This document shows, one piece after another, positions 269-53,774 of a stretch of DNA of 64,000 nt. Where the stretch lies: the NCBI RefSeq assembly GCF_000719865.1, contig NZ_JOID01000025.1, positions 72,911 to 136,910 of the forward strand. The letters run 5' to 3'. The notes beneath the pieces are model-generated. The model was not told the origin of the DNA and did no database searches. It saw only the letters and a list, made by a program, of their open reading frames with translations. The translations under genes were made by a program, and so were the position numbers. This DNA comes from Streptomyces albus subsp. albus. GTDB taxonomy: Bacteria > Actinomycetota > Actinomycetes > Streptomycetales > Streptomycetaceae. Numbering within the stretch: the first letter of the stretch is position 1; each line of letters opens with the position of its first letter.

Positions 269-2157
269 GCGGGGTGACCGCACCCGCCGACGCTCCCGTC
301 CGGAGCGCTGACTCCCCGCGCCCGCGCCCAGAGGGTCTGGATCTGCGGTTGCTGCCCTGCGCTCTGGCCGCTTGGGCGGCTGCCGCCGCGGCGGTCGGAG
401 TCCGGCCCGTCGTGGCGGTGGTCGGCGCGGGCTGCTGCGCGGTGACGGGGCTGGCGGTGCTGCTCGTGGCTCTCACCCGAGGCCGGACTGCGAACCCCGG
501 CCGGGACCGTACCGCCGTCCGGACGGCCGCCGGGGAACCGTCCGGTGCGGGCCCGGTGGCGGGGCCGGCCGTGACACGGCGCCGGGGCAGCACAGGGGTC
601 GCACTGGCGGCGGTCCTCTTCTGCGCGGCGGCCGCGGCCGGCTCGGGAGCTCTGCGCGCCGCCGATCTGCACCGGGGTCCGCTGCCCGGCCTGGCACGGC
701 AGTCGGCGGGGGTCACGGCCGAGGTGACCGTCACCGGTGATCCGAGGCTCACCCGTCCGCGGGTGAACGGTCCGCGGAGCACCCCACCCGCCGTGGTGCT
801 GACGGCCGAGGCCCGGCGGGTCACGGCCGGGGACGGCACGGTCACCGAGGTCCGCACACCGGTACTCGTCTTCGTTCCGCTCCGGGCCGTCGCCGGGCGG
901 TCCGAGGACGAGCGGCGCACGGGGGTGCGAGAGCGGGCGGCGTGGCTGCGGCTGCTGCCGTCCACGCGGCTGCGGCTGCAGGCGCGGGCCGTGCCGTCGC
1001 AGGGCGGGGGCGACCGGGTGGCCGCCGTGCTGCGGGTCACCGGTAAGGGACCGCCGGTGGTGGTGCGGGGACCGACCGCCGTGCAGCGGGGGGCCGGTGA
1101 GCTGCGGGCGGGTCTGCGGAAAGCGTCCGACGGACTGTCGGCCGACGCGCGGGCGCTCCTCCCCGGACTGGTGGTGGGCGACACCTCGCGGGTACCGGCC
1201 GATCTCGACCGGGCCTTCCACGCAACCGACTTGGTGCATCTGCTCTCCGTGAGCGGCGCCAACCTCACGATCGTGCTGGCTCTGCTGATCGGCCCCCCGC
1301 ATCTGGCCATCCGGGCCGAACGGCGCGGACTGGCGCCCCGGTTCGGGATCCCGCTGCGCGGCACGGCCCTGCTCGGCGGACTGCTCACCCTGGGCTTCGT
1401 CATCGTGTGCCGGCCGGAGCCGAGTGTCCTGCGGGCCGCCGCCTGCGGTGGGATCGCCCTGCTGGCCATCGCCACCGGCCGGCGGAGATCGCTGCTGCCC
1501 GCGCTGGCCGCCGCGGTCCTGCTGCTCGTCCTGTACGACCCGTGGCTCGCCCGCTCCTACGGCTTTCTGCTCTCGGTGCTGGCGACCGGGGCGCTGCTGA
1601 CCGTCGCCCCGCGCTGGAGCGCGGCCCTGCAGCGACGCCGGGTCCCCGGCCGGCTGGCCGAGGTGCTGGCCGCCGCCGCGGCGGCACAGGCCGTGTGCGC
1701 GCCGGTGGTCGCGGTCCTGGCGGCACGGGTGAGCCTGGTCGCGGTTCCCTGCAATCTGTTCGCCGAACTCGCCGTGGCCCCGGCCACGGTGCTGGGTTTC
1801 GCCGCGCTCGCGACGGCCCCGCTCGCGATGCCGGCCGCCGAGGCGCTGGCCTGGCTCGCCGGGTGGCCGGTGGAGTGGATCGCGGCCGTGGCCCGCGCCG
1901 GCGCGGCGCTGCCGGGCGCGGAGCTGGACTGGCCGGGCGGCTGGACCGGCGGGCTGCTGCTCGCCGCCGTGACGGCGGCGCTGGTGCCGTTGGGTCCGCG
2001 GCTGGCGCGCCACCCATGGCTCTGCGCGGGCTGTGCCCTGGTCCTGCTGGTGGCCGTGGTCCGCCCGGGGCCGCTGCCGCGGTTCGTCACCGGCTGGCCC
2101 CCGCCGGGGTGGCGGCTCACCGTGTGCGACGTGTTCCCTGTTGAATCGACGTGTTGA
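265..2157 (+). pseudogene. comEC: ComEC 5' fragment, interrupted by the mobile element
   Basis: This is the N-terminal 623 codons of ComEC, the membrane channel for DNA uptake, followed by seven foreign residues and a stop supplied by the inserted element. Hydrophobic stretches near the N-terminus and the ComEC competence domain (LVHLLSVSGANLTIVLALL around residue 330) are present, followed by many membrane helices. The frame runs normally to WRLTVCDV at 2110-2133, where family members continue GQGDA, and then diverges. The missing metallo-beta-lactamase half is found 51.6 kb away at 53775-54581 in the matching frame. The product lacks the whole C-terminal hydrolase domain, so it is probably non-functional as an uptake channel. 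Confidence 0.95.
2128..2133. other. left junction core GACGTG (attL)
   Basis: GACGTG encodes the Asp-Val of the ComEC motif DVGQG. The same hexamer occurs at 53769-53774 at the other junction, in the frame that resumes comEC. A six-base core is what is known for Tn554-type site-specific recombination. A further GACGTG at 2148-2153 lies inside the terminal repeat and is not the junction, because comEC has already been lost by 2134. Confidence 0.85.
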
Positions 2158-2159
2158 AG
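2134..2159 (+). repeat. left terminal inverted repeat
   Basis: Reading inward from the left junction the sequence is TTCCCTGT, eight variable bases, then CGTGTTGAAG. The right end read inward is TTCTCTGT, nine variable bases, then CGTGTTGAAG (complement of 53742-53768). The outer eight bases match with one difference and the inner ten match perfectly, as expected of a pair of recombinase binding sites. Confidence 0.85.
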
Positions 2160-2179
2160 CCGAAGCAGGAGGGGACATT

Positions 2180-3724
2180 ATGACTGGCTGGCGCGTCTTC
2201 TGGGTGCCGAAGAGCCGTGCGGTTGATCCGCAGAGGGTGCCCGCTTTGGCAGGTTTGGGCGATCTGGCGGAGAGGGAGGACCACACGGGAATCCACGCAG
2301 GGGACCCGATCTTCTTGTCGCCTGACTACCGAATTGATGAACTGCTGAGTCTGTATCTGTGCCGGTCTTCCTTCGCCCGTCTCGCGGTGGAGACCAAGCG
2401 GAATTACACCGATGACTACGCGATCTTCTTTGACTTCCTCTGGGTCAGGGGCAAGGCGTGGAACGAGGCCACGGCCGATGATCTCTGGGACTTCGAGGAC
2501 TGGCGTACGCGCTCGCCCCGGAACCCGGAGAAGGTCGGCGCCGCACGTTGGAACCGTGGTCTTGCTGCGCTGACTCGCCTGTACAAGTGGGCTGTTGCCA
2601 CGGAGAACATGGCGAGCAACCCGATCCTGATGCATGCCGTGGCCGGCTATCAGGGCGACGTGGTGCAGACGCCGGAAGCCCGGGCGAAGGAGGCCAAGTC
2701 CAGTGATGTGCACTGGCTGACACCGCGGATGTTCCGGCTCTGGGTGGACGTAGGTCTCCGCGGCTATACGGTGGAGGGTCTGCCGTCGCCGGACTGGCGG
2801 GGACGTCTGGAAGTTCGCAATGTCGCCTTCGCTGATCTGCTCTTTTCCTCGGGGATGCGGCTGACCGAGGGAGCGTCGCTGCTGACGATCGAGGTGCCGA
2901 GGCTGCGACTTGGAGGCCCGCGCTACTACACAGGGCGGCTTGCGAAGCGGGTGACGAAGTCCAAGCGAGCTCGCACCTACTACGTGGCATCGCCTGTGGT
3001 CGGCGAGGTGGAGAGTTACATGGAGTCGCTGCGGGCCCGGGTGATCCGACGTGCGCAGGCGAGGGGCCGATATGACGCCCTGGAGGAGATGCGCCTGCTC
3101 ACGAAGGTCACCGGGCGTCGCAAGAAGATCCTGCACTGGGTCGACCGAGACGGCATGGTGGGGAGGACGCCGCTGACGGAGGCGCCGGTGGAGGAGCGGA
3201 TGACGTACTTCACCGAGGGCCCCACGGGCCCGGAACCGGTGTGGTTGTGGCTGAACGAGCAGGGACTGCCGTTCCATCCGGCATCGTGGGAGAACGTCTT
3301 CTGTACGGCTTCGGACCGGTGCGACGACGTTCTGGGACCGGTGATGGCGGAGCCGCCGTTTTGCACTCCGCACATGTGCCGGCACTCCTTCGCCCTCTAC
3401 ATGCTCGTGGTGCTACACCACGTCATGGACGTGCGTATGGGCCTCACCCCTGAGGAGAGGCGGGACTTCCGGCTTCTCTACGGCGATCCGTGGCGCATGG
3501 TGCAGGATCTGCTGGGTCACCGGGACATCGAGCTGACCCGCAAGATCTACCTGGCGCCCGTCTCGGACCTGCAGATCCGGGCGCTGATGGCCGACCCGGC
3601 ACCGCGGGACACCGAGGCCGGCGGCCTGAGCGTGTCCGATGCACGGGTCACGTCGCTGCTGGCCCGCATCGCGGAGGAGAGCGACGGCATCCAGGACATC
3701 GACACGCTGCTGGAGACGGCGTGA
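2180..3724 (+). CDS. tyrosine recombinase 1 of the Tn554-like element (TnpA-like)
   Basis: A 514-residue site-specific recombinase. ATG 2180 is preceded by a strong ribosome binding site (AGGAGGGG at 2167-2174). An N-terminal SAM-like core-binding domain (YTDDYAIFFDFLWVRG, about residues 75-90) precedes a canonical catalytic domain. Visible catalytic residues are Arg227 (SSGMRLTE), His398-x-x-Arg401 (HMCRH), His447 (LLGHRD) and the nucleophile Tyr457 (RKIYL). It is the most complete catalyst of the three recombinases and the likeliest to cut and rejoin the GACGTG core. It starts only 46 bp inside the element, so little room exists for its own promoter. The stop overlaps the next GTG start (GTGA). 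Confidence 0.92.
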   Translation: MTGWRVFWVPKSRAVDPQRVPALAGLGDLAEREDHTGIHAGDPIFLSPDYRIDELLSLYLCRSSFARLAVETKRNYTDDYAIFFDFLWVRGKAWNEATADDLWDFEDWRTRSPRNPEKVGAARWNRGLAALTRLYKWAVATENMASNPILMHAVAGYQGDVVQTPEARAKEAKSSDVHWLTPRMFRLWVDVGLRGYTVEGLPSPDWRGRLEVRNVAFADLLFSSGMRLTEGASLLTIEVPRLRLGGPRYYTGRLAKRVTKSKRARTYYVASPVVGEVESYMESLRARVIRRAQARGRYDALEEMRLLTKVTGRRKKILHWVDRDGMVGRTPLTEAPVEERMTYFTEGPTGPEPVWLWLNEQGLPFHPASWENVFCTASDRCDDVLGPVMAEPPFCTPHMCRHSFALYMLVVLHHVMDVRMGLTPEERRDFRLLYGDPWRMVQDLLGHRDIELTRKIYLAPVSDLQIRALMADPAPRDTEAGGLSVSDARVTSLLARIAEESDGIQDIDTLLETA

Positions 3725-5475
3725 GCCGGAGGGGCCGCAAGGCGGCTCTTCCTGAGGCCGGGCATCGGCGGCCGGCGGTTCTGGATACATCCGGGCTGGT
3801 GGTGCGTCACCGCAACAAGCTGGGCACCGTCAAGGAGTTCGACTTCGCCGAGTTGTCGTTCACCCCGGCGATGCGGCGGTCCTTGGCCGGACTGTTCGCG
3901 GCCAAGTGCGCTCCCGGCGGCGGCTGGGACAGCCACGACACCTCCGTCCACATCTGGCGGCTGCTGAGAGCCTTCGGCGAGTACCTGACCGAGACCGACC
4001 AACAGCCGGACGACATAGCGGACTTGACGGCCGGGACCTGGATGGCCTGGCGGCTGAGCCGCCCACAGACCCAGATGGGGTACGTCCAGATCACCTCGGT
4101 AGCGGGCTTCCTACAGCTGGACTCGCGCCTGGCACAGCCGGTACGGGTGGCCATGGCCAAGCGGGTGCCGCGGGTGAAGGTCGAGGAACACGCCTTCACC
4201 CCTGACGAGTTCGAGGAGGTCCGCCGCTCGGCCCGGCAGATGTTCCGCTCTGCGCTGCTGCGGATCCGGGAGAACGTCCAGTTGCTGGAGGCCTGGCGCT
4301 CAGGCGGCATCGAGCCCCAGGACCTGCAGAACTGGCTGATCGGTGAGGGGCTGGACTGCCTCGCCCGCACCGGCCACATACCCCGCTACCCGAGAGGTGA
4401 CGGCCGAATGCGTCCGGTCTTCCGCTACTCGAAGGCCATGGGCGGCGACGGCGCCATTTACACCTGGAGGCGCCTGTACCTCTCCCGCCGGGAGGCCACG
4501 GCACTCGGGGTCTTGCTCGCCGCGGAGCACGGCCTGAACGCCACCACGGTCGGCGAGATGCGCACGCCCAGGGCGACGCCTGACTCGGGCGAGGGCCGCT
4601 TCCCGGTCTACCGGATGGAACTGGAGAAGCGGCGCAAGGGCGAAGCCGATCACTTCGAGACCCGCAACCTTGCCGACTTCGGCGCCGATTCGCCCGGACG
4701 TCTGATCACCGAGGCATTGGAGGCCACCGCCCCGGCCCGCGCCTACCTGGCATCCGTGGGCTGTACCGCCGACAGGTTTCTGATCTGGCACGAAACCCGC
4801 CCACGTCACTGGCAGGACACCAACGAGGCACTGATCCGGGAGGGCCCCTTCGGCCTGGGCCTGACCAAGCCGGATTTCGACGACTACGGAACCCACTTCG
4901 GCCCGGACGGGGGCGGCGTCATGCGCCGGACTCGCAAGACGGCGAACGTGGTGCACCGGCGTGAGCCGGGGCAGAACAGCCAGGACACCCACGACAGCGT
5001 CTACGTCATCCCCGAACCGCAGGCCCAGCAGGCCGCCATCCCGGTCATCGCGGCAGGAGTCGAGGACGCCCTGGAGTCCGCCCGCCGCACCGTGTTCACG
5101 GCCAAGCTCACCGACGCTCCCGAGGACGGCGAGGTGGAGGCCGCCACCAACGGCTGTGCGGACTACGAGAACAGCCCCATCACCGGGCCCGGCGCCAGCT
5201 GCGGGGCATCGTTTCTGCTCTGCACCGCATGCCCCAACGCCCGCGTCCACCCCGGCCATCACTCCCGTCTGGCCCACCTGCACCGTGCCATTGGGGAGCT
5301 GGAGGCCGTGCTGCCCAAGGCGGTCTGGGACGCGGAGTGGTCCGAGCCCCACGACCGGCTGTCCGACCTCAAAAGACGCCTGGGACCTGCTCTTTGGCGC
5401 CGGGCCCTTGCCAATGTCACCGCCGAGGACCGCCAGGTCGTCGGCGACCTGCTGAACGGACTCTACGACCTGTGA
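3721..5475 (+). CDS. recombinase 2, divergent integrase-like protein with C-terminal Cys cluster
   Basis: A 584-residue protein read from GTG 3721, which overlaps the previous stop. Size, position between two recombinases and the N-terminal helical region fit the second integrase-like protein of three-recombinase transposons. The catalytic part is divergent. I find no classic HxxR, only a basic MRRTRKT stretch followed by THDSVYV, where Tyr428 could be the nucleophile. The C-terminal region has Cys479, Cys494, Cys501 and Cys504, a probable zinc site. It may be a structural or accessory recombinase rather than an independent catalyst. Its stop overlaps the next GTG, so the three genes form one coupled transcript. 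Confidence 0.75.
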   Translation: MSRRGRKAALPEAGHRRPAVLDTSGLVVRHRNKLGTVKEFDFAELSFTPAMRRSLAGLFAAKCAPGGGWDSHDTSVHIWRLLRAFGEYLTETDQQPDDIADLTAGTWMAWRLSRPQTQMGYVQITSVAGFLQLDSRLAQPVRVAMAKRVPRVKVEEHAFTPDEFEEVRRSARQMFRSALLRIRENVQLLEAWRSGGIEPQDLQNWLIGEGLDCLARTGHIPRYPRGDGRMRPVFRYSKAMGGDGAIYTWRRLYLSRREATALGVLLAAEHGLNATTVGEMRTPRATPDSGEGRFPVYRMELEKRRKGEADHFETRNLADFGADSPGRLITEALEATAPARAYLASVGCTADRFLIWHETRPRHWQDTNEALIREGPFGLGLTKPDFDDYGTHFGPDGGGVMRRTRKTANVVHRREPGQNSQDTHDSVYVIPEPQAQQAAIPVIAAGVEDALESARRTVFTAKLTDAPEDGEVEAATNGCADYENSPITGPGASCGASFLLCTACPNARVHPGHHSRLAHLHRAIGELEAVLPKAVWDAEWSEPHDRLSDLKRRLGPALWRRALANVTAEDRQVVGDLLNGLYDL

Positions 5476-7571
5476 CCGTCGCTCTCCTGGAAGACCTTCC
5501 CGACCGCCCGGGCCCCGATACGCCCGTCATCGCCGCTGACCTGATCGTCAACCCGAACGCCCCCAACGCCCGCTACAGCGACATGATCTGGCCGCTGTCT
5601 CCCCTCAACGCGAACCCGAGCGCTTCGCGGAACGCACTGCACCTGGACGCCTTCCCCGCGCCGCTTCGGGAGGAGTTCACCTACCTGGCCTGGTCGATGA
5701 TCAACCGGGCCCTGCCGGACGACTTCCTGGTCGGCCGTGTCCCTACCTGGCGGACCCGACAGAGCCCCGGCAAGCTCTACTCCACCGTGCAGCGCTGGCG
5801 AGCCCTGGCCGAGTGGCTGGTCAAACGGGACATCACCACCCTCGCGCAGTGCACGACGGAGGACGTGCGGGCGTTCGCGCTCGACAACCTGCGCACCCCG
5901 AAGTCACGCGAGTACGCGGCATCGTTCCTGACGTCGATCTCGCGGCTGTGGGCCTTCGACTTCTACGACGCCCAGCCGCTGGGGATCGGTGAACCGCCGT
6001 GGCACTGGGAGGGGATCGACGACTTCCTGCCGGCGGCAACCGCGCGCGGTGAGAACGCGACCGAGCCGATCACGGCGGCCACGATGGGACCGTTGCTGAT
6101 CTGGGCTTTGCGGGTCGTCGACGACTTCGCCGAGGACATCATGCGGGCCTGGGAGAAGGCCACGGACATGACCGCCCGGGCCGAGGCCACGGTAACCAAC
6201 AAGCTGGGCCTGGCCCGCATCAAGGACTACGTCGACGCCCGCCGCGACCGCGGCGAGCCCATCCCCAGCTGGGTCCAATCGCATGGGCGTACGGAGTGCA
6301 TCCCCTACATCTCCGCCCTGACCGGCGCCTCCATGGGCCAGGTCGACAGGGTGCTCAGACGGGGCTACCGGAGCGAGTACGCCCGCGCGAATCTCGGCCC
6401 CAGCCCCCTGAAACTCAAGATCAAAGGCCGTATCGACGGCACCCCGTGGACTAAGGCGATCGACTTCGGCGACGTCGATTCGCTGATGCGGCACCTGGGC
6501 ACGGCCTGCTTCATCGTGCTGGCCTACCTGACCGGCATGCGGCCGGGCGAGGTGCTGAGCCTGCGCAGCGGAAGCTGCCCCGAACCCGACTCAGGACCGC
6601 ACCTGATCTACGGAAACGTCTACAAGACCGCCCGCGACGAGGACGGCAACTACCTGTCCGAGGGGATGCTGCGCGAGATGCCGTGGGTCGCCATCGCCCC
6701 CGCGGTCAACGCCATCCGGGTCCTGGAGCAGATCGTCCCCGAAGGCGACCTGCTGTTCGACGCACACGCCCACGACTTCCGCTTGCGGCGCAAGTTCACC
6801 GGGTCCATCACCTACGCGACGATGAGCGATCGCATCGAGCACTTCGCCACCTGGGCCTCCGACCAGGCCATCCGCCTGGAGCGTCCGCATGAGACCGTCC
6901 CCGCCGACCCGCACGGAGCGATCGGCACCGAACGGTTCAGACGGACCCTGGCCTGGCACATCGCCCGCCGCCCCGGCGGCCTGGTAGCCCTGGCGATCCA
7001 GTACGGCCACATGCGCACGGTGGTCAGCGCCGGCTATGCCTCGCGCAGCCGCGACGGCATTCACGACCTCCTCGACATCGAAACCGCCCGGGCGACCGTC
7101 GACACCCTCGCCACACTCAACGCCGACCTGAGCGAAGGAGTCGGCATCTCCGGACCGGCAGCCCGCCGCGCGATCAACGCAGCTGCCCACGCCCCGGAGT
7201 TCCTCGGCACCGTGATCAGCGTACGGACCGCCCAAGACATTCTGGACAACGCGCAACTGTCTGTCTACGACAATCCCGGCAGCTACCTGATGTGTGTCTA
7301 CAACCGTGACAAAGCCCTGTGCCACCGTCTGGAGGGCCAACAGGATGCCCCCAGTCTGGACCGATGCCAGCCGTCCTGTGCGAACATCACCCGCACCGAT
7401 CGCCACGCCGAACAACTCATCGCCTTGGCGCGGAAGTTGGAGAAGCAAGCCGGGTCCGAACTCGTCCCCGTCCCGCTGGCTGACCGGTTCCGCCGCCGCG
7501 CCAGCCGCCTCCGATCTTTTGCCGACGAGCACTACCGCAACCGCGTCACCGTCCAGGAGGACCTGTCATGA
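5472..7571 (+). CDS. tyrosine recombinase 3 (TnpB-like)
   Basis: A 699-residue recombinase starting at GTG 5472. It has a long N-terminal DNA-binding region and a recognisable catalytic domain: Arg357 (TGMRPGE), His496-x-x-Arg499 in RRTLAWHIARRPGG, His513 in QYGHM and the probable nucleophile Tyr522 in AGYAS. The spacing and the RRTLAWHIARRPGG signature are characteristic of TnpB-type recombinases of the Tn554 family. A C-terminal Cys set (608, 617, 632, 636) probably binds zinc, as in gene 2. The length is somewhat above the roughly 630 residues of TnpB in Tn554. ATG of the next gene overlaps the stop (ATGA at 7568-7571). Confidence 0.9.
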   Translation: MTVALLEDLPDRPGPDTPVIAADLIVNPNAPNARYSDMIWPLSPLNANPSASRNALHLDAFPAPLREEFTYLAWSMINRALPDDFLVGRVPTWRTRQSPGKLYSTVQRWRALAEWLVKRDITTLAQCTTEDVRAFALDNLRTPKSREYAASFLTSISRLWAFDFYDAQPLGIGEPPWHWEGIDDFLPAATARGENATEPITAATMGPLLIWALRVVDDFAEDIMRAWEKATDMTARAEATVTNKLGLARIKDYVDARRDRGEPIPSWVQSHGRTECIPYISALTGASMGQVDRVLRRGYRSEYARANLGPSPLKLKIKGRIDGTPWTKAIDFGDVDSLMRHLGTACFIVLAYLTGMRPGEVLSLRSGSCPEPDSGPHLIYGNVYKTARDEDGNYLSEGMLREMPWVAIAPAVNAIRVLEQIVPEGDLLFDAHAHDFRLRRKFTGSITYATMSDRIEHFATWASDQAIRLERPHETVPADPHGAIGTERFRRTLAWHIARRPGGLVALAIQYGHMRTVVSAGYASRSRDGIHDLLDIETARATVDTLATLNADLSEGVGISGPAARRAINAAAHAPEFLGTVISVRTAQDILDNAQLSVYDNPGSYLMCVYNRDKALCHRLEGQQDAPSLDRCQPSCANITRTDRHAEQLIALARKLEKQAGSELVPVPLADRFRRRASRLRSFADEHYRNRVTVQEDLS

Positions 7572-7999
7572 GCCCCGCTCCCGATGAACGCGACCGCATC
7601 CGGGCCGCCATGGATCGGATCTTGGCCGACAGCCCTGAACACTCCAACGGCGCCTTGACCATCGTGGCCCTGGCCCAGGAGGCTCAGGTCCCGCGCAACG
7701 CACTCACTCAGCGCCACCTGGACCTGAAGAACGAGTTCTACGAAAAGGTCCGGGCCCGCGGCGCCATGCCGGACAGTGAGAAGCGGCTGCGGCGGCAAGT
7801 GACCAAGCTCAAGGAACTTCGGGCGGCGGACGCCAAGGAGCTTGCGGCCCTGCGGTCCGACGTCGAAGCTCTGGTCGGCGCCCTGCACCAGGTACAGATG
7901 GAGAACCGGCAACTGCGTCAGCGACTCGCCGCCCCCGACCCCACCGTACGTTCGCTGCCCACGCAGCCCCGGCCGCGAGCCGCCCGCAGGCGTTCTTGA
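7568..7999 (+). CDS. DUF6262 / TnpC-like accessory protein
   Basis: A 143-residue protein coupled to the last recombinase by ATGA. The first 60 residues form a helix-turn-helix-like segment (TIVALAQEAQVPRNALTQRH). A long charged coiled coil follows (about residues 70-115, rich in Lys, Glu, Leu), and the tail is basic and Pro/Arg-rich. Tn554-type elements carry a small TnpC at this position that influences orientation and efficiency of transposition without being a recombinase. The same size, order and coiled-coil build support that role here. A direct DNA-binding function is inferred only from the helix-turn-helix look and the basic tail. Confidence 0.8.
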   Translation: MSPAPDERDRIRAAMDRILADSPEHSNGALTIVALAQEAQVPRNALTQRHLDLKNEFYEKVRARGAMPDSEKRLRRQVTKLKELRAADAKELAALRSDVEALVGALHQVQMENRQLRQRLAAPDPTVRSLPTQPRPRAARRRS

Positions 8000-16794: not shown

Positions 16795-16814
16795 GGGAGA
16801 GAGGCGGCAAGGCG

Positions 16815-45788: not shown

Positions 45789-47192
45789 ATGGACTTCTTC
45801 GAGGAACTGCACCGGCACGGGGACCGGACGGCGGTGGTCGACGACGACGACCGCCGGTTCTCGTTCCGTGAACTGCACGAGTTGGCGCACGAGTTCGGCG
45901 ACAGACTGCCCCGGGGCGAACGGGCGCTGATCCTGTTGCGGACGCGGAACAGCATCGAGTCGCTGATCGGATACCTGGGCGGTGTCGCGAGCGGCCACGT
46001 GGTGCTGCCGGTCGATCACAGCCTCGACCCGGCCCTGGTCACCCGGCTCATGGACGCCTACCGGCCCGAGTATGTGTGGGGAGCGGGGCAGGCGGCGGAT
46101 CCCGCGCTGTTCTCCATCGGCGACTACACCCTGGCGCCGACCCGCTACGGGCCGGGGGGGCCGCTCCACCCAGACCTGAGCGCCGTGCTGCTCACATCGG
46201 GCTCGACCGGCTCCCCCAAGGGGGTGCGGCTGACCCGCGCGAACATCACGGCCAACGCCCGCTCCATCGCCGAGTACCTCGAACTCGACGCCACGGAACG
46301 GCCCGTGACCAGCCTTCCCATGAGCTATTCCTACGGCCTGTCGGTCATCACCAGTCATCTGCACGTCGGCGCCACCCTGCTGCTCACCGGCGAGTCCCTG
46401 GTGCGCGGCGAGTTCTGGAACTACTGCCGCAGGCACGAAGCGACGTCGTTCTCCGGGGTCCCCTACACGTACGAGATGCTGGACACGCTGCGCTTCCCGT
46501 CCGTCGAACTGCCCAGCCTGCGGTACTTCACACAAGCCGGCGGCCGACTGCCCACCGAGCGGGTCGAACGGTACGCCGCGGAGGCGGACCGCAGAGGCGT
46601 CCGCTTCTACGTGATGTACGGGCAGACGGAGGCGACGGCCCGCATGGCCTATCTGCCGCCCGAACTGCTGTCGGCCAAGCCCGGCAGCATCGGGCGGGCC
46701 GTGCCCGGCGGCACGCTGTACCTCAAGGACGAGCAGGGAGCGAGGATCGCTGCCGCGGGACGGACCGGCCGGCTCCACTACGAAGGCCCGAACGTGATGC
46801 AGGGTCACGCGAACGGACGGGGCGACCTGGCCCACGGGGACCAGCTCGGCGGCGTGCTCGACACCGGCGACCTCGCCTACGTCGACGAGGACGGCTGCTA
46901 CTACATCGCCGGCCGGAGCGGCCGCTTCGTGAAGCTGTCCGGCGTCCGCTACGACCTCGACGAACTGGAGCAGGGCCTCACACGCAGCGGTATCACCTGC
47001 GCCTGCGGCGGCAGCGACGAAGAACTGGCGGTCGCCGTCGAGGACGCCGCGCTGGCGCGGCTGGCGAAGCAGACGCTGCGCCGGACCTTCCGGGTGGACC
47101 CCACGCAGGTACGGATCGTGGTGGTGCCGCGGATCAGCCGGACGGCCAGCGGAAAGATCGCCTACGCCAAGACATTCGAGAACGGGGAGTGA
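45789..47192 (+). CDS. AMP-forming acyl ligase (ANL superfamily), probable starter activator
   Basis: A 467-residue adenylating enzyme, start ATG 45789 three bases after the previous stop. ANL core motifs are intact: LTSGSTGSPKGV (about 135-147), YGQTEAT (about 278), DTGDLAYVDEDG and the C-terminal catalytic Lys in ISRTASGKIAY. It is a little shorter than most family members (500-550). The neighbours include a discrete ACP (48032) and two methyltransferases. It most likely activates a carboxylic acid and loads it on that ACP as the PKS starter. The acid is not predictable from what I can see, and a CoA-ligase role is the alternative. Confidence 0.85.
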   Translation: MDFFEELHRHGDRTAVVDDDDRRFSFRELHELAHEFGDRLPRGERALILLRTRNSIESLIGYLGGVASGHVVLPVDHSLDPALVTRLMDAYRPEYVWGAGQAADPALFSIGDYTLAPTRYGPGGPLHPDLSAVLLTSGSTGSPKGVRLTRANITANARSIAEYLELDATERPVTSLPMSYSYGLSVITSHLHVGATLLLTGESLVRGEFWNYCRRHEATSFSGVPYTYEMLDTLRFPSVELPSLRYFTQAGGRLPTERVERYAAEADRRGVRFYVMYGQTEATARMAYLPPELLSAKPGSIGRAVPGGTLYLKDEQGARIAAAGRTGRLHYEGPNVMQGHANGRGDLAHGDQLGGVLDTGDLAYVDEDGCYYIAGRSGRFVKLSGVRYDLDELEQGLTRSGITCACGGSDEELAVAVEDAALARLAKQTLRRTFRVDPTQVRIVVVPRISRTASGKIAYAKTFENGE

Positions 47193-47197
47193 AGACG

Positions 47198-47974
47198 GTG
47201 AGCACCCATCGTGCGGTCATCGAGCAGTTCAACGAAGGAGCGGAGCATTTCGACAGCTGGTCGGTGACCAAGGACGAGCGCATGCTCCGCGGGCTCGCCG
47301 AGTTCTGTGAACTGTCCGCGGGCGACGATCTGTTGGACCTGGCCTGCGGCACCGGAGCCCTGGCCCTGTACGGCGCGCGACGGGTCCGCTCCGTCACCGG
47401 CGTGGACATCTCGGAGGGGATGATCACGGTCGCCCGCCGCAACGCGGCCGAACGCGGCCTGGCGAACACCTCGTTCGTGTGCCGCAACGTGGAGCGGCTC
47501 GACCTGGAGGCCGACCGGTTCTCGGTCGTCGTGTCCCGGTCGGCCTTCCACCACATGGCGCGCCACCGGGAGGTCTTCGCCGGGATGGTGCGCTGCTGCC
47601 GCCCCGGCGGACGACTGTGCATCCAGGACGTCATGGCGTACGGAGACGAGAAGAAGGACCGCTATTTCGAAGAGATGGAGCGGCTCATCGACCGCAGCCA
47701 CCACCTCACGTACGGGAAGCGGGAGTTCTTCGAACTCTTCAAGGGCAACGGCGTCAAGGTGACCGGTCTCTTCGAGTCCGAGTCCCTGCTCGACTTCCAC
47801 GACTACGTGGAACACGTCGCACAGACCGAGGACAGTCGCATGGCGATCGGCCGCCTCCTCACCGCCGGTCTCGCGGACTCGGACATCGCCACCGAATTCA
47901 CCGAGCACGACGGCCGGTTGATGTGGCGCCGCAAGGTCTGCACCATTCGGGGACGCAAGGCGGACCGGACCTGA
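47198..47974 (+). CDS. class I SAM-dependent methyltransferase (UbiE/COQ5-like)
   Basis: A 258-residue protein. GTG 47198 is chosen for a GGGGAG eight bases upstream; GTG 47189, which overlaps the ligase stop, is an alternative. The SAM motif LLDLACGTGALALYGA is at about residues 45-60, followed by VTGVDISEGMI and a later SRSAFHHM. The fold and length fit small-molecule O- or C-methyltransferases of secondary metabolism. It lies in the ligase-ACP block, so methylation of the starter unit is one possibility, and tailoring of the product is equally possible. Confidence 0.85.
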   Translation: MSTHRAVIEQFNEGAEHFDSWSVTKDERMLRGLAEFCELSAGDDLLDLACGTGALALYGARRVRSVTGVDISEGMITVARRNAAERGLANTSFVCRNVERLDLEADRFSVVVSRSAFHHMARHREVFAGMVRCCRPGGRLCIQDVMAYGDEKKDRYFEEMERLIDRSHHLTYGKREFFELFKGNGVKVTGLFESESLLDFHDYVEHVAQTEDSRMAIGRLLTAGLADSDIATEFTEHDGRLMWRRKVCTIRGRKADRT

Positions 47975-48031: not shown

Positions 48032-48292
48032 ATGGACGCAGTACGGAAGCAGATCAAGCAGTTCATGGAGGAATCCCTTCTGGTGACGTTCGACGCGGAG
48101 ATCACCGAGGACACCGACCTGTTCAAGGCGGGCGTGGTCGAATCACGGGACTACCTCAACATTCTCCGCTTCCTCCAGGAGGACTTGAAGGTCGAGATGA
48201 CGGACGAAGACCTCTTCATGAACGTGCTCGTGTCCCTTTCGGGGATCACCGAATTCGTTCACCAGAAGCAGGGCGGCAACCAGCCGGTCTGA
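48032..48292 (+). CDS. discrete acyl carrier protein, probable starter carrier
   Basis: An 86-residue, acidic, helical protein with the ACP pattern TDLFKAGVVESRDYLNILRFL, in which Ser38 is the probable phosphopantetheine site. It differs clearly from the donor ACP of the HMG cassette. It stands directly between the ligase/methyltransferase genes and the KS-ACP-ACP gene, which fits a carrier that receives an adenylated starter acid and hands it to KS8. An alternative is a second donor ACP used by the second HMG synthase, comparable to the two ACPs of myxovirescin. Confidence 0.8.
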   Translation: MDAVRKQIKQFMEESLLVTFDAEITEDTDLFKAGVVESRDYLNILRFLQEDLKVEMTDEDLFMNVLVSLSGITEFVHQKQGGNQPV

Positions 48293-48305: not shown

Positions 48306-51089
48306 GTGGATATGACACACATGGGTGACAGCGTCGAGGGAAGCGGAAACGCTCGGGCCGAGGGGATCGCCATCGTCGGCGTGAGCCTGCGCCTCCCCGG
48401 CGCCGAGTCGATGGACGAGTTCTGGCAGTTGCTGGACGAGGGCCGCTGCGTCATAGGTGACCCTCCGCCAGAGCGCCGAGAGTCCGCCGGGCGCGCGGCG
48501 CGCGGCGGCTTCCTCGCCGACGCGGACGCGTTCGACGCCGCGTTCTTCAACATCTCGCCGCGCGAGGCCATGTTCATGGATCCGCAGCAGCGGTTCGCCA
48601 TGGAACTGGCCTGGCAGGCCATCGAGGACGCCGGGTACCGGGCCGCCGCGCTCCAGGGGTCGCGGACCGGTGTCTTCATGGGGGTTGCCAACTCCGACTA
48701 CACCGAGCTGGCCGAGACGCGGCACGGGGAAGTCGACGCGTACCTGCCGACCGGCACCTCGGCTGCGATCATCGCCAACCGGGTCTCGTACTGGTTCGAT
48801 CTGCACGGGCCCAGCATGACCATCGACACGGCGTGCGCCAGTTCGTTGGTGGCTGTGCAGCAGGCAGTGCGCGCGCTGGAGCACGGTGACTGCGAGTACG
48901 CACTGGCCGGTGGCGTGAACCTGTGCTGGTCCAGCCGTAGGTTCGAGGCGCTCAGCCGCAACGGCATGCTCTCCGACGACGGCCTGTGCCGGGCCTTCGA
49001 CAGCCGGGCGGACGGATACGTACGGGCCGAGGGCGGGGCGGTCGTACTGCTCAAGCCGCTGGCCACCGCGGTCGCCGACGGCGACGCGATCCACGCGGTC
49101 GTCCGAGGCATCGGATCAAACCACGGCGGACGGACGAACTCGCTAACGATCACCAACCCCCAGGCCCACGCCGACCTGGTCAGCGACGTCTACACACGGG
49201 CCGGGGTCGGCCCGGACACGGTCGGCTACATCGAGGCCCATGGCCCCGGCACGCCGCTCGGCGACCCCATCGAGGTGCACGGTCTCAAGAGCGCCTTCGG
49301 GCGGTTGGCCGAGCGTGCGGGTGTGGAACTGCGGCCCGGTGCCTGCGGGCTCGGCTCGGTGAAAACGAACATCGGCCACCTGGAGTCAGCGGCCGGCCTA
49401 GCCGGAATGCTGAAGGTCGTGGCAGCGATCAGACACCGGACCCTGCCGGCCACGCTGCACTTCGACAAGCCCAACCCGCTCATCAAGCTGGACGGCAGCC
49501 CCTTCCGCGTCGTGGACCGGGCACAGCCGTGGGAACCCGTCAAGGGGGCCGACGGCGAGGCGCTCCCGCGCCGCGCTGGCGTCAGTTCGTTCGGCTTCGG
49601 TGGCAGCAACGCTCACGTTCTGCTGGAGGAGTACCTGCCCGCGCAGTCCGCTCGTGACGATGACGCAGGGGCCGCCCCGCAGGCTCGGCAACTGATACCC
49701 ATGTCTGCCACGACCGGTGAACAACTGCGTTCCATGGCACGGAACCTGCTGCGTGCCATCGAGGTCGCGGCCACCGACCCCGGCTCCCTCGACGCTCCGG
49801 GCCTGCGGGACATCGCGTACACCCTGCAGACCGGGCGTACGGAGTGGCCCCACCGGGTGGCCTTCGTCGTCACTGATTTCGACGAACTCGCCGCGGAACT
49901 GCGGTCGTTCACCCGTGACGAAGGCAGCGCCCGGTGCTGGCAGGGCACGGTGGAGAACCAGCCGCGGTTGACGGTGCTGGAGAACGACGAGGACGCCGCC
50001 GCGATGCTGCGGAGCTGGGGCGCCAAGGACAAGCTGGACAAGGTCGCCGAGCTATGGACGCTCGGCGGCCCCATCGAGTGGGACGCGCTGCGCGTCGGCG
50101 GCCCCGCGCGCAGGACCCACCTGCCGACCTACCCCTTCCAGCGACGCCGCTACTGGTTGCCGACGGCACCGGACGAGGCGGCCACCGCCGACCGCGCCGA
50201 TGTGCCGGTGCACAGGGCGGACACCGAGGCGGAGCCGGCGCCGGCCGCACCGGCGGGCATCCAGCTCGCCGCACCCGCGGCGTACGCCTCGCCGAGGATC
50301 CAGCCACAGCCCGGTGTGCCCAAGCCGAGCGGGATCGGTCTGCGTGAACTGCCCGAACCGTCCGCGAGCACGGCATCGCCCGTCTCACCGGGGCACCCTG
50401 CGCAACGCGCCCCGCAGGAGGCGGACCGTGCGCTGCTGGAGCGGCGGTTGGCGAGCAGTCTCGCCGAGGTGCTGTATCTGGAGCCGCACGAGGTGAGCAT
50501 CGACGGCAAGTTCATCGACATCGGACTCGATTCCATCGTCGCAGTGGAGTGGATCCGCGTCGTCAACACCTGCTTCGGCGCCTCCTTGGAGACGGCCGAC
50601 GTGTACGAGTTCCCGACGATCCGCGAGCTCGCCGCCGAACTGGCCAGGGCCACGCGGCCGGCCGCCCCCGCCGGTGGCGCCGCGACGGCGACCGAGCCCG
50701 GCGCGGCGCGGGTGACCGAGGACATCCCGCGGAGCGTGTCGGTGGACCCGTCCTCGTTGGTGGGCGAGTTGATACAGACCCTTGCCGAGGTGCTCTACGT
50801 CCCCACCGAGGAGCTGGGCGCCGAGGACAAGTTCATCGACGTCGGACTGGACTCCATCATCGCCGTCGAGTGGATGGGCGTGGTCAACGCCCGGTACGGC
50901 ACTGATCTGCCGGTGGCCGACATCTACGAGTACCCCACCCTCCGCGAGTTCGCCGTCCATCTGGCAGGGCGGATGACGTCATCCGCGGACGACTCGGGGA
51001 TCGAGGAGGTGCTCCGCCAGGTGGTGGCCGGGAGCCTGGAAGTCGAGGAGGCCGAGCGGATGCTGGAGTCACAGACACATGTCGCGTGA
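48306..51089 (+). CDS. PKS5: KS-ACP-ACP with tandem beta-branching ACPs (927 aa)
   Basis: A single trans-AT module. GTG 48306 or ATG 48312 may start it; the same GGGG box serves both. Layout: KS8 20-445 (DTACASS, HGPGTPLGD, KTNIGHL); linker rich in Ala/Pro; ACP9 708-780; ACP10 818-890; C-terminal helical hairpin (EEVLRQVVAGSLEVEEAERML). ACP9 (Ser743, Trp749) and ACP10 (Ser850, Trp856) both show DSIxAVEW with Trp at Ser+6, the beta-branching signature. Duplicated ACPs are common at such sites and raise throughput. The hairpin matches the N-terminal hairpin of PKS1, so this protein probably acts first although it is encoded last. The downstream gene overlaps its end. Confidence 0.92.
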   Translation: MDMTHMGDSVEGSGNARAEGIAIVGVSLRLPGAESMDEFWQLLDEGRCVIGDPPPERRESAGRAARGGFLADADAFDAAFFNISPREAMFMDPQQRFAMELAWQAIEDAGYRAAALQGSRTGVFMGVANSDYTELAETRHGEVDAYLPTGTSAAIIANRVSYWFDLHGPSMTIDTACASSLVAVQQAVRALEHGDCEYALAGGVNLCWSSRRFEALSRNGMLSDDGLCRAFDSRADGYVRAEGGAVVLLKPLATAVADGDAIHAVVRGIGSNHGGRTNSLTITNPQAHADLVSDVYTRAGVGPDTVGYIEAHGPGTPLGDPIEVHGLKSAFGRLAERAGVELRPGACGLGSVKTNIGHLESAAGLAGMLKVVAAIRHRTLPATLHFDKPNPLIKLDGSPFRVVDRAQPWEPVKGADGEALPRRAGVSSFGFGGSNAHVLLEEYLPAQSARDDDAGAAPQARQLIPMSATTGEQLRSMARNLLRAIEVAATDPGSLDAPGLRDIAYTLQTGRTEWPHRVAFVVTDFDELAAELRSFTRDEGSARCWQGTVENQPRLTVLENDEDAAAMLRSWGAKDKLDKVAELWTLGGPIEWDALRVGGPARRTHLPTYPFQRRRYWLPTAPDEAATADRADVPVHRADTEAEPAPAAPAGIQLAAPAAYASPRIQPQPGVPKPSGIGLRELPEPSASTASPVSPGHPAQRAPQEADRALLERRLASSLAEVLYLEPHEVSIDGKFIDIGLDSIVAVEWIRVVNTCFGASLETADVYEFPTIRELAAELARATRPAAPAGGAATATEPGAARVTEDIPRSVSVDPSSLVGELIQTLAEVLYVPTEELGAEDKFIDVGLDSIIAVEWMGVVNARYGTDLPVADIYEYPTLREFAVHLAGRMTSSADDSGIEEVLRQVVAGSLEVEEAERMLESQTHVA

Positions 51090-52095
51090 GGTGGCCGCCC
51101 CGCTGATCCTGCCTGATGTCGCCGATACGCGGCGTCAGGCGGGGCTGCCCGCAGTCTTCATGTTCTCGGGGCAGGGCTCGCAGTACCACCACATGGGGCG
51201 CGAACTGTTCGAGACGGACGCCGTCTTCCGGGCGGCCCTGTTTCGCCATGACGCCGTGCTCGCCGAGGAGTTGGGCGAGTCCGTGCTGGACCGGGTTTTC
51301 GACCCGGCCAGGAGGAAGACGGATCCGTTCACCGACACCCGGCTCACCCACCCCGCGATCGTCATGTTCCAACTGGCGCTCGCGGAAGCCGTGCAGGCGG
51401 CCGGCGTCGAGGCACGGTACGTGCTCGGTTCGAGCCTCGGCGAGTACACGGCCGCGGCGGTGGCCGGGACCGTTGAACCGGCGGAGTGCCTGCGCCTGCT
51501 GGCGCGCCAGGGCGCGCTGCTGCACACCCGAGTGCCCGGCGGGATGCTCGCCGTCCTCGCCGATACGACGGTCTTCGACGATGCGCCGGCGCTGTACGGC
51601 ACCGACGTAGCGGCGCGGAACTACCCGGGCCATCTAGTCGTCGCCGGCGCGACGGACGTGCTCGAACGCGCGGCCGCGCAGCTGCGCGCGGCGGGCGTGG
51701 TGCATCAGCGTGTGCCGGTGGAGCACGGGTTCCACTCGTACCTGATGGATGATGTGCGTGATCCGTTCCGTGGCTCCTTCGAAGGGGTGGTACTGAGGGC
51801 GCCTGGCATTCCCTGGGTGTCGTGCGTGGACGGCCGTCTGGTCGAGAGTCCGACGGCCGGCCACTTCTGGCGTGTGGCTCGCGGCCCGATCGAGTTCGAG
51901 GAGACGATGCGGATCATGCAGGACCGCGGAGACTTCCTGTATCTCGATCTCGGCCTGTCCGGAACACTCCAGGGCTTCGCGCGCAACAACCTCGCTGAAG
52001 GCACCCGTTCACGGGCCGTCAGCCTCCTCAGCCCCTTCGACGGCGGCCGGAACGCGGTGGCGAAGGCCCTCGCGGCCGTCGCCGACAGGTCATGA
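51079..52095 (+). CDS. AT-like acylhydrolase (trans-acting proofreading enzyme)
   Basis: A 338-residue FabD-fold protein starting at ATG 51079 inside the PKS5 gene. It shows FMFSGQGSQ near residue 28, the nucleophile Ser119 in GSSLGEY (first His of the usual GHSxGE replaced by Ser) and His219 in HGFHS. Tandem trans-AT pathways often pair a loading AT with an acylhydrolase (PedC-type) that removes stalled acyl groups. The altered motif and the existence of a normal malonyl AT at 13090 favour that role. A loading AT for an unusual extender or starter is the alternative and cannot be excluded. Confidence 0.78.
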   Translation: MSREVAAPLILPDVADTRRQAGLPAVFMFSGQGSQYHHMGRELFETDAVFRAALFRHDAVLAEELGESVLDRVFDPARRKTDPFTDTRLTHPAIVMFQLALAEAVQAAGVEARYVLGSSLGEYTAAAVAGTVEPAECLRLLARQGALLHTRVPGGMLAVLADTTVFDDAPALYGTDVAARNYPGHLVVAGATDVLERAAAQLRAAGVVHQRVPVEHGFHSYLMDDVRDPFRGSFEGVVLRAPGIPWVSCVDGRLVESPTAGHFWRVARGPIEFEETMRIMQDRGDFLYLDLGLSGTLQGFARNNLAEGTRSRAVSLLSPFDGGRNAVAKALAAVADRS

Positions 52096-52108: not shown

Positions 52109-52786
52109 GTGATCGAGGAACTGTTGCCGCCGTGGGTCCGGTCCGCAGAGGCGTTCGATGACGCGGTGGAGGCACCGCTCTGTCCGGGGGAGAGCGAGGC
52201 CGTCTCAGGCACGACACAGAGGCGTCGTCTTGAGTTCGCCACGGTGCGACGCTGCGCACGAACGGCCCTGGCGGAATTGGACGTACGGCCGGGGGCGCTG
52301 CTGCCGGACGAGCACGGCGCCCCGCTCTGGCCCCCGGCGATCGTAGGGAGCATGACGCACTGCCCCGGCTACCGGGCGGCGGCTGTCGCGCGTACGGACC
52401 GTGTGCGTGCAGTGGGCATCGACGCCGAGCCCAACGAGCCCTTGCTCGGCGGGATCCATCAGATCGCCGATGCCGCGGAGCGGCGACACCTCGACGATCT
52501 TTCGGCCAGTGGGTACCCGGTCCAGTGGGACCGGTTGCTGTTCTGCTGCAAGGAGGCGGTCTACAAGTCCTGGTTCCCGCTCGCCCGGCGCTGGCTGGGC
52601 TTCCACGATGCTGTGATCACGATCGAACCTGACCGGAACACGTTCCACGCGCAACTCCGACCGCCGCGTCGGGGCGGTCTGACACGGGCGGGCCAGGAGC
52701 CGACGGGGTTCACCGGACGGTGGCTGGCGCGTGATGGTCTGCTGCTGGCGACGATAGCGGACCCGCGCCCACCCGGCAGTCCATGA
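52109..52786 (+). CDS. second phosphopantetheinyl transferase
   Basis: A 225-residue PptT/EntD-type transferase from GTG 52109, with GGGAGAG upstream. Motifs are GSMTHCPGYRAAA (about 78-90), VGIDAEPNEPLL (about 103) and CCKEAVYKSWFPL (about 147), carrying the Mg- and CoA-binding acidic residues and Lys. It resembles the transferase half of the minus-strand fusion at the other end of the cluster but lacks the phosphoesterase. Two PPTases may divide modular and discrete carrier proteins between them, or one may be resistant to the fused hydrolase. It is the last cargo gene of the plus-strand operon. Confidence 0.9.
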   Translation: MIEELLPPWVRSAEAFDDAVEAPLCPGESEAVSGTTQRRRLEFATVRRCARTALAELDVRPGALLPDEHGAPLWPPAIVGSMTHCPGYRAAAVARTDRVRAVGIDAEPNEPLLGGIHQIADAAERRHLDDLSASGYPVQWDRLLFCCKEAVYKSWFPLARRWLGFHDAVITIEPDRNTFHAQLRPPRRGGLTRAGQEPTGFTGRWLARDGLLLATIADPRPPGSP

Positions 52787-52922: not shown

Positions 52923-53570
52923 TCAGTTGGCCATCCGCCGTGCGACGGTCACCACACTTCCGGTCAAAATCGGCCGCGACCGATAGGGGGTGCCATTATC
53001 TGGCACCCCCGGGTCGGGCAGGGCGGCTCGGCAGGCTTGCGGGAAGTCGGGCGGGATCTGCCCGAGGAGCTTGGACGTGCTGTGTGCCGCGAGGAACAGG
53101 TCGGCCAGCCGTGCCGCAGGAGGAAGTTTCTTGACCGGCTTGGCGGACAAGGCTCGCGTGGTCCATCCAGACACCCGTGAGCGTACGTTCTTCCCGAAGG
53201 GAAGCGGTTGATCATCTGTGCGGGTCAGGTCGGGGACCGTGATCGGGACCGGAGTTGCGGGATCTTCGTCGAAGAGAGCGTCGCCGATCTGCCAGCCCAG
53301 GCTGCGAAGGGCGTCGACGGCTTCGCGTGCATCGCTGAGCCGCAGAGCGGACAGGTCTGCCCCGGTGAGGTTGCCGACACCACCACGTGCGGCCCGGATG
53401 GCCACCACCACGGCGACGAGCTGAGCGTCAGGACCAGGCAGCGCGAGGGCGGACGCGTAACTCAGCAGCGTTCGCGCGGCTTCCCCTTGTGTGGAACTCA
53501 GCAGGAACGGCTGCAGCGTATTGGCCGGGACGGCGCTGATATTGCTGGCGGCGGATGCATTCTTCGGCAC
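52923..53570 (-). CDS. unrecognised 215-aa protein at the right end of the element
   Basis: An open frame from GTG 53570 to the stop at 52923 with normal high-GC codon use. I do not recognise the family. Residues 20-110 are Ala/Leu-rich and helical (LLSYASALALPGPDAQLVAVV), then LSDAREAVDALRSLGWQIGDALF resembles a winged-helix turn. The second half is basic with Pro, ending VARRMAN. No ribosome binding site is clear, so the true start may lie further in. It is the outermost gene of the element, reading inward from the right end, a position where transposons often keep a transposition helper or a toxin-like passenger. Confidence 0.5.
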   Translation of the reverse strand: MPKNASAASNISAVPANTLQPFLLSSTQGEAARTLLSYASALALPGPDAQLVAVVVAIRAARGGVGNLTGADLSALRLSDAREAVDALRSLGWQIGDALFDEDPATPVPITVPDLTRTDDQPLPFGKNVRSRVSGWTTRALSAKPVKKLPPAARLADLFLAAHSTSKLLGQIPPDFPQACRAALPDPGVPDNGTPYRSRPILTGSVVTVARRMAN

Positions 53571-53768
53571 GACGGCGCCAACGCGTATGGAGGAGGCTGG
53601 TCACTATCCCTGCTCCATCTGGAGCAGACCAGAAAGAGAGTGCCCTGTTCCTGCCTGTGTGAGTGGTCCGAACCCTCGATGCAGGCTGGACGGCACCACC
53701 CGGACGGGCAGCCTCCGCCAGAGTCCGCGCAGACTGCAAGACTTCAACACGCTGAACTTGACAGAGAA
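53571..53768. other. right-end non-coding segment of the element
   Basis: No gene is visible. A perfect palindrome, CTGCTCCA-TC-TGGAGCAG, lies at 53610-53627 and could be a protein-binding site or the stem of a small hairpin near the recombination end. Confidence 0.5.
53742..53768 (-). repeat. right terminal inverted repeat
   Basis: Read inward on the minus strand the sequence is TTCTCTGT, nine variable bases, then CGTGTTGAAG. It matches the left end (2134-2159) in 7 of the outer 8 and all of the inner 10 bases. Confidence 0.85.
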
Positions 53769-53774
53769 GACGTG
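53769..53774. other. right junction core GACGTG (attR)
   Basis: GACGTG directly precedes GGCCAGGGGGAAGCC, in the frame Asp-Val-Gly-Gln-Gly-Glu-Ala of ComEC. It is the same hexamer as at 2128-2133. Confidence 0.85.

Follow-up and report, generated by a model that had tools for sequence, protein, structure and literature searches.

An element integrated in comEC

How does a polyketide pathway come to lie inside comEC, and did it arrive there by its own means? The question is raised by a 64,000-nucleotide stretch of Streptomyces albus subsp. albus DNA, referred to here as the window (positions 72,911–136,910 of contig NZ_JOID01000025.1, from a 6.94-Mb draft genome of 126 contigs), in which comEC is divided by an insert that holds a recombinase operon and a trans-acyltransferase (trans-AT) polyketide synthase (PKS) cluster. 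Based on the sequence comparisons described below, we consider that the insert is probably a site-specific tyrosine-recombinase transposon that was integrated in comEC by its own operon together with its trans-AT polyketide cargo. The insert is bracketed by the hexamer GACGTG, present at 2128–2133 and again at 53769–53774. Upstream is the 5' part of comEC (265–2133, forward strand), encoding the membrane/competence domain (ComEC_N-term TIGR00360, 45.9 bits, cut-off 36.5), whose frame continues into the element as far as 2157, and downstream is the 3' part (53775–54581, forward strand), encoding the metallo-beta-lactamase domain (PF00753, 2.7e-15). When the flanks were joined, one open frame was restored across LTVCDVGQGEALV, and the joined flanks aligned without gaps over 542 bp (80% identity) to the uninterrupted comEC of a relative, G327 (genomes of the genus that were compared are designated by G numbers), which is also the best-matching other comEC (83% over residues 1–380 of the 381-residue piece). 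The insertion falls in the codons for the DVGQGD motif of comEC, which is split at one base. The original prediction, that comEC is cut at GACGTG and resumes in frame 51.6 kb further on, was therefore borne out, as was the size of the element, which occupies 2134–53768 (forward strand; 51,635 bp without the hexamers).

The inverted terminal repeats that had been described for the element were also found. The left repeat, TTCCCTGTTGAATCGACGTGTTGAAGC (2134–2160), and the right repeat (53741–53768), both listed on the forward strand, form imperfect inverted ends (left TTCCCTGTTGAATCGACGTGTTGAAG; right, as its reverse complement, TTCTCTGTCAAGTTCAGCGTGTTGAAG). Taken alone this pair is only moderately unlikely, given that 21 of 20,000 random window pairs aligned equally well, but similar ends recur in relatives: the consensus TTCYCT...TGTTG at the left and ...TTGACAGRGAA at the right was seen in all six of the other comEC elements that were read to both ends. 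With one mismatch allowed, the right-end motif occurred in 69 of the 392 genomes searched within the genus, compared with 1 for a reversed-pattern control.

The recombinase operon

At the left end of the element (2180–7999, forward strand) are four open genes that overlap by 4 bases and encode products of 514, 584, 699 and 143 aa. Gene 1 (2180–3724) encodes a tyrosine recombinase with Phage_integrase (PF00589) and SAM-like (PF02899) domains, in which R227, H398xxR401, H447 and Y457 are conserved, and gene 3 (5472–7571) encodes a large tyrosine recombinase with conserved R357, K385, R488xxR491, H513 and Y522 and a weak match to the phrog_1 integrase (9.6e-05). We take these to be the catalytic residues, as assigned from the known tyrosine-recombinase motif, and they are kept in alignments of 38 rows each (R, HxxR, H and Y for gene 1; R, K, RxxR, H and Y for gene 3). 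The product of gene 2 (3721–5475) has no recognised domain or conserved RHRY set, and no catalytic set is conserved in its alignment of 33 rows; by its position it is like Tfp, the second gene product of the SE elements discussed below. In profile comparisons gene 2 had no significant match to gene 3 (E 0.056, probability 1%) and likewise none to gene 1, so its designation as a recombinase by sequence is unsupported; its sole match in the PDB, to an RNA polymerase subunit, was at chance level (E 0.64). Gene 4 (7568–7999) had a sub-threshold YabA match and no Pfam match above the cut-off, and is TnpC/Srap/GinD-like by position and size only. The earlier description of the operon as three tyrosine recombinase-like genes plus a TnpC-like gene consequently stands in part: genes 1 and 3 keep their catalytic sets, gene 2 has neither such a set nor a profile match, and gene 4 is placed by position and size. 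Relatives of gene 3 were detected in 144 of the 392 genomes (E up to 0.001, many of them partial or distant); at 1e-5 they were also present in 226 of 72,556 plasmid records, among which 67 are from Streptomyces.

Related elements at the same base of comEC

To find related elements, 40 stretches were fetched around gene-3 matches and comEC was searched over 19 chosen genomes. In six of the 40 stretches (G204, G205, G250, G294, G359 and G363), gene 1 directly followed comEC residue 621–623. Among the 19 genomes, comEC was uninterrupted in 12 and halved in seven, namely these six and that of the window. A further genome, G178, is a seventh other case with the same left base (the comEC residue before gene 1 being 621–624 across all seven), on a contig that ends inside gene 3. 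The left base after 2133 is hence shared with seven other comEC copies, and the right boundary at 53769 with the six that were read there, as had been predicted for other strains. These junctions bear on the explanation that the block is an artefact of assembly or of homologous recombination: a draft assembly in 126 contigs would allow for one, but both junctions lie inside one contig, the ends are family-specific and the same left junction base is found in seven other assemblies and the right in six, which makes an artefact extremely improbable.

The elements differ greatly in length, from 10.5 kb (G363) through 15.7 (G294), 18.3 (G250), 19.3 (G359), 26.7 (G204) and 29.2 kb (G205) to the 51.6 kb of the window. 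The six others that were read to both ends carry a related operon with different cargo. At the DNA level the cargo of the window matched them only in the last 25–28 bp of the element, within the right terminal repeat, in three of the six (blastn). At the protein level its left cargo resembled G204 and G205 only in short, weak matches, in a comparison that omitted the PKS part; shared cargo is not supported beyond the end repeats and these short matches. By eye, G204 and G205 have some cargo in common, so cargo is not wholly private. Scanning 20 of the 61 called cargo open reading frames (ORFs) of the six elements for protein families (the remainder were judged by length only, as called by a simple ORF caller) identified type I restriction-modification in G250; an AbiJ domain with a kinase, an ABC-3C-like pair and a UDP-sugar dehydrogenase in G359; a PIN-domain protein in G294; a Tn3 transposase, a B12/radical SAM protein and an AAA protein in G205; an integrase in G204; and only a sub-threshold sigma-factor match in G363. 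No called ORF of these six was of PKS size, the largest being 1,026 aa. With cargoes of these kinds, to propose that the element is a vehicle dedicated to natural products is an overstatement.

Two other comEC copies were unusual. In G294 (G294:C1:3448633-3481593) a second break, approximately 32 kb away, divides the 3' half of comEC. In G219 (L180, G219:C2:7076000-7085500) comEC is present from approximately residue 648 and only short pieces were found upstream, which indicates that this copy is deleted or rearranged.

A second comEC site and plasmid copies

The counts of interrupted comEC genes are lower bounds, as the re-examination covered some of the genomes with split matches: 16 were chosen, of which two served as intact-comEC controls. 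In seven genomes (G031, G131, G214, G271, G303, G350 and G430; loci L170–L178) comEC is broken approximately 48 codons further downstream, at the motif LTHFHADH. A relative of gene 1 (24–26% identity) lies right after the break in six of the seven, with no relative of any operon gene detected in G430; relatives of genes 2 and 4 follow in five of those six, and gene 3 is also detectable in three of the five. A comEC broken elsewhere in relatives had been named beforehand as an observation that would count against the original prediction. Such a second break site does exist, but as six of the seven breaks adjoin a distant operon relative, they extend the claim rather than refute it, and indicate that at least two distant lineages target comEC. 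A single origin of comEC targeting was unsupported by the gene-3 tree (38 rows, seven of them comEC), which needs five label changes, of which well-supported branches force three; a number as low was obtained in 24 of 500 shuffles.

Related copies are also found on plasmids. The smallest copy seen, of 6.1 kb, is on the Streptomyces uncialis linear plasmid NZ_CP109584 (L186:16632-22725) and has no annotated gene beyond the operon; this cargo-free copy is the minimal unit. A copy of 10.5 kb on the Streptomyces cyaneofuscatus plasmid NZ_CP109311 carries permease, undecaprenyl-diphosphate phosphatase, DoxX, PadR and PAP2 genes, and one of 14.3 kb is on the Streptomyces globisporus plasmid NZ_CP109060 (L187:16649-30960), with flanks identical as printed to those in G242 (G242:C25).

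Flanking hexamers and a model for movement

Comparison of the hexamers beside these copies suggests that they behave as coupling sequences. Intact comEC genes have TGY-GACGTG or TGY-GACGTC followed by GGSCARGG (7 of 12, those caught by the search pattern). The six other comEC elements with both ends read have a native far-side hexamer (GACGTG, GATGTC, GACGTC or GAGGTG) and a foreign operon-side hexamer, the latter being seen in G178 too. The right hexamer of the window (53769–53774) is the native comEC one, and the left hexamer (2128–2133), on the operon side where the seven other copies have a foreign sequence, is also GACGTG; the chance of such an identity at this composition is ~0.0006. An obligatory duplication of a GACGTG target is ruled out, given that the hexamers differ in all six of the others. 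Across 12 copies of the family with both ends, a count that omits the rearranged G197, the one-ended G178 and G208 and a second right end of G241, the hexamers are equal in four (the window, G241, G242 and G316) and unequal in eight (G204, G205, G236, G250, G294, G359, G363 and plasmid NZ_CP109311). Of three further plasmid copies, one has equal hexamers (NZ_CP109060) and one different hexamers (NZ_CP109584), and in the third (NZ_CP109253) no left end was found. One hexamer polarity for the whole family is not supported: the foreign hexamer is on the operon side at the first comEC site and the arrangement is mostly reversed at the second, where, as judged by eye, five of seven copies (G031, G430, G350, G271 and G303) have the native hexamer beside the operon, whereas G131 has it at the far end and G214 at both ends. 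The polarity of G236, at a site outside comEC, also looks opposite to that of the first comEC site when judged against G316.

On this basis the movement of the element may be pictured as follows. The four-gene operon would have excised the element elsewhere as a circle and integrated it, with its PKS cargo, into comEC. The catalytic products of genes 1 and 3, with the non-catalytic product of gene 2 and the small product of gene 4, would make cuts with a 6-nt stagger beside the TTC ends, and the circle would take one flanking hexamer along as a spacer. Upon integration the hexamer from the donor would come to lie beside the operon, with the native one at the other end, a mirrored version of the one-spacer model that has been described for SEs (PMC10214605); for both GInts and SEs, circles made by the recombinases and containing 6-nt spacers have been described (PMC5385486, PMC10214605). 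The operon-side GACGTG of the window would then have been the hexamer on the far side of the element at its last donor site, another comEC, and the two identical hexamers fit a last hop from one comEC to another. However, heteroduplex repair, reported for GInts (PMC5385486), is an alternative route to equal hexamers, which lessens their weight as a sign of a comEC donor. No transfer genes were recognised in the element, and transfer between cells could occur by riding on plasmids, where relatives are found.

The polyketide cargo and its counterparts

The claim that the element contains a PKS pathway with its own 4'-phosphopantetheinyl transferases (PPTases) was confirmed, and from its parts the cluster is apparently complete. 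These parts are, unless noted otherwise, on the forward strand. The discrete acyltransferase AT1 (13090–13956; FabD-like, TIGR00128, 329.6 bits, cut-off 260.9) is followed by a beta-branching cassette comprising the HMG-CoA synthase-like protein HCS1 (14008–15267), a free-standing ketosynthase (KS; 15553–16794; NF005490, 594.7 bits, cut-off 445), a second HMG-CoA synthase-like protein, HCS2 (16680–18083), and an enoyl-CoA hydratase (ECH; 18071–18847; NF005498, 361.6 bits, cut-off 250). Then come PKS1 (18990–27194; 2,734 aa), with two KS, dehydratase (DH), ketoreductase (KR) and acyl carrier protein (ACP) domains; PKS2 (27191–34843; 2,550 aa), with two KS, methyltransferase, KR and three ACP; PKS3 (34840–40392; 1,850 aa), with ECH, two KS and two ACP; and PKS4 (40404–44948; 1,514 aa), with KS, a partial AT, DH, ACP and a terminal thioesterase. 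Beyond a 262-aa protein without a Pfam domain (44997–45785) are an AMP-dependent ligase (45789–47192; PF00501), a methyltransferase (47198–47974), a discrete ACP (48032–48292), PKS5 (48306–51089; 927 aa; KS and two ACP), the discrete acyltransferase AT2 (51079–52095; PF00698) and a PPTase (52109–52786; PF17837, PF01648). The other PPTase is fused to a metallophosphoesterase on the reverse strand at 9649–11376 (PF00149, PF17837, PF01648). In total there are eight KS matches over the five PKS proteins, and the trans-AT designation is based on AT1 and AT2 being discrete and the only in-line AT, in PKS4, being partial (profile positions 15–109 of 319).

A largely syntenic counterpart of the cluster, mostly in the same order and with 56–80% identity, is present in G314 (AT1 70%, HCS1 80%, KS 70%, HCS2 67%, ECH 61%, PKS1–4 56–61%, ligase 63%, methyltransferase 72%, discrete ACP 72%, on which its identification is based, and PKS5 57%). 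The PPTase matches there are at 46–47%, the search of G314 yielded no counterpart for the 262-aa protein, and the AT2 query matched only the DNA of AT1 (30%). The sole gene-3 relative of G314 is on a different contig from its PKS cluster, indicating that such a cluster also exists outside these elements. In the 392 genomes the 80% match in G314 was the best for HCS1, none elsewhere exceeding 69%, its own genome aside. Searching the contigs of named genomes with PKS4 gave seven loci (29–44%), and in the plasmid records 1,349 matched, all below 60%, the best of 12 listed being 42%. Closer relatives (87–91%) of HCS1 or of the 262-aa protein are in Streptomyces sp. NBC_01166, NPDC001904 and NPDC048514, with those of the 262-aa protein in the latter two at 87–90%; these strains were not among the 120 gene-1 relatives listed of 482, a list in which many rows are nameless. 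That list does include a gene-1 relative at 94% on a metagenome contig of 27.7 kb (P0123).

These comparisons are relevant to a different history, in which comEC was entered by a small element that gained the PKS cluster only afterwards, through insertion sequence (IS) activity or homologous recombination, such that the whole never moved as a unit. Between the operon and the cluster is the remnant of a broken Mutator-type (IS256-like) transposase (8488–9493, reverse strand; PF00872, 1.3e-30 for 8528–9493, with its end in another frame as judged by eye), a possible entry scar that makes a later arrival of the cluster conceivable. The occurrence of the related cluster in G314 without the operon, and of a PKS in the window only among the comEC elements read to both ends, would also be in keeping with such an addition. 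Conversely, the cargo lies strictly within the element ends and the equal hexamers fit, if softly, a hop between comEC genes; with the cluster borders examined as far as the IS remnant, we judge a later addition to be unlikely.

Another explanation is that the element moved once and is now a relic that is unable to excise. In favour of this, PMC10214605 notes that transposition of GInts and RITs had yet to be reproduced under laboratory conditions, but in the window all four genes are open, the catalytic residues are conserved in genes 1 and 3 and both ends match those of relatives, and we regard a relic as quite unlikely. Our preferred interpretation is that the transposon integrated by means of its own operon and is likely to move as one unit. 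Several observations weigh against this interpretation. Gene 2 has no demonstrated kinship to recombinases in the profile and PDB searches; the IS256-like remnant separates the operon from the cluster; and no second genome with both this operon and this PKS was found in the HCS1 search of the 392 genomes, so that their joint movement rests on one copy. In addition, equal hexamers are seen in three of five copies at other sites (G241, G242 and G316), which softens the reading of a hop between comEC genes, and mobility, with its excised circle, same-strain empty site and transfer, is predicted from sequence.

Relationship to known elements

The element had been called Tn554-like. Tn554 targets att554 in radC and has a small resistance cargo, whereas the target in the window is comEC. 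Strict Tn554 has three genes (tnpA, tnpB and tnpC), with no counterpart of Tfp, compared to the four overlapping genes of the window. Shared with Tn554 are an ordinary and a large recombinase, imperfect inverted ends and a 6-bp footprint (PMC10214605), and the window has such ends together with hexamer exchange in place of a target duplication. A closer relationship is apparent to the actinobacterial Tn554-related transposons reported in 2012 (PMC3414803), which have a long recombinase of 611–828 aa and a neighbouring one of ~350 aa, have a TnpC-related gene in most cases and occur on actinobacterial plasmids and chromosomes, including those of Streptomyces. The 699-aa product of gene 3 fits the long recombinase, but the other recombinase of the window is of 514 aa and is separated by the 584-aa gene rather than adjacent, and the consulted passages of that report name no middle gene, comEC target or biosynthetic cargo, although such a middle gene may have gone unlisted there. 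The 143-aa gene 4 compares with the TnpC-related partner by position. Plasmids NC_008697 and NC_009426, which are in its table, have gene-3 relatives (29% and 28%), possibly not the same genes as those tabulated. The kinship part of the earlier name stands, pointing to the actinobacterial Tn554-related class, and strict membership of Tn554 does not, given the four genes, the non-catalytic second gene and the target.

In its layout the element is closest to the SEs (PMC10214605), with which it shares the order IntA-Tfp-IntB-Srap, a non-catalytic second product, inverted ends, a 6-bp footprint and target specificity. SEs are reported there from Gammaproteobacteria, the comparison with the window is one of layout, and their native hexamer is on the intA side, whereas at the first comEC site all six informative copies have theirs at the far end; the elements at the second comEC site mostly follow the SE arrangement. 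GInts (PMC5385486) share a four-gene operon at one end, site specificity and variable cargo of up to ~70 kb. That cargo already includes a biosynthetic cluster, for phaseolotoxin (PMC5385486), and defence-carrying GInts are described in E. coli (PMC10121019). GInts differ in that GinC, the third product, is without the first catalytic arginine, whereas gene 2 is the degenerate one in the window, and in having flanking imperfect repeats of 10–17 nt instead of hexamers (PMC5385486). RITs have three recombinases of 315–410 aa, all with the tyrosine, 34-bp repeats and no fourth gene, as against 514, 584 and 699 aa and a fourth gene in the window. As these defining features fail, the element is not a strict Tn554, GInt or RIT. 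To judge from sequence, it seems best described as a four-gene branch with kinship to the Tn554-related transposons of actinobacteria (PMC3414803), and by analogy it would work like SEs, GInts and Tn554. In a literature search judged mainly by titles and abstract openings, subscription papers aside, no element of this type that targets comEC or carries a PKS was found. As far as searched, two features are new, namely that comEC serves as a docking site, at two positions and for two distant lineages, and that the cargo comprises a whole PKS.

Consequences for the host and wider significance

The insertion parts the ComEC membrane domain from the metallo-beta-lactamase (nuclease-like) domain. 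In pneumococcus, a mefA cassette also breaks comEC, in a different host, and inhibition of transformation was reported (cited in PMC4774983). A gain to mobile elements from breaking competence genes is argued in PMC4774983, and PMC11472951 deals with how mobile elements and transformation conflict. In Kitasatospora, a related genus, a double deletion of comEA and comEC left DNA uptake by wall-less cells unchanged, and the function of comEC in that genus is described as unknown (PMC9500057). We speculate that the elements benefit from comEC breakage in Streptomyces, and repeated breakage at two motifs bears on whether mobile elements profit from disabled DNA uptake. A broader idea, which we put forward tentatively and consider possible rather than probable, is that comEC is a standing Streptomyces dock for a large guild, so far little recognised, of transposons with a four-gene recombinase operon. 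Two or more distant lineages would home on two of its most conserved motifs (DVGQGD and HFHADH), shuttle between plasmid and dock, swap whole cargoes up to complete PKS pathways and silence a DNA-uptake gene that could cure them, with the last address (here comEC) kept in the operon-side hexamer.

The movement of biosynthetic clusters between actinomycetes is mostly inferred from phylogeny. A whole PKS within precise transposon ends, at a repeatedly used site, makes such transfer directly testable, and if the element is mobile as one unit, it would be a vehicle that passes a natural-product pathway between strains. Two genes of the cargo also merit comment. An AICAR formyltransferase-like gene (11285–12565, reverse strand; NF005492, 480.3 bits, cut-off 415) accompanies the PKS cluster, and its counterpart (71%) is at the far end of the cluster in G314. 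The 262-aa protein has a 66% relative in Priestia megaterium, and some of its other relatives are named class I SAM-dependent methyltransferase.

The right-end motif and the comEC junctions together provide a simple search handle for other mobile pathways and defence cargo. Two right-end motifs were seen on the same strand 45 kb apart in G040 (G040:C1:974631 and 1019979), a genome without a gene-3 match, and they are possible remnants or islands moved in trans.

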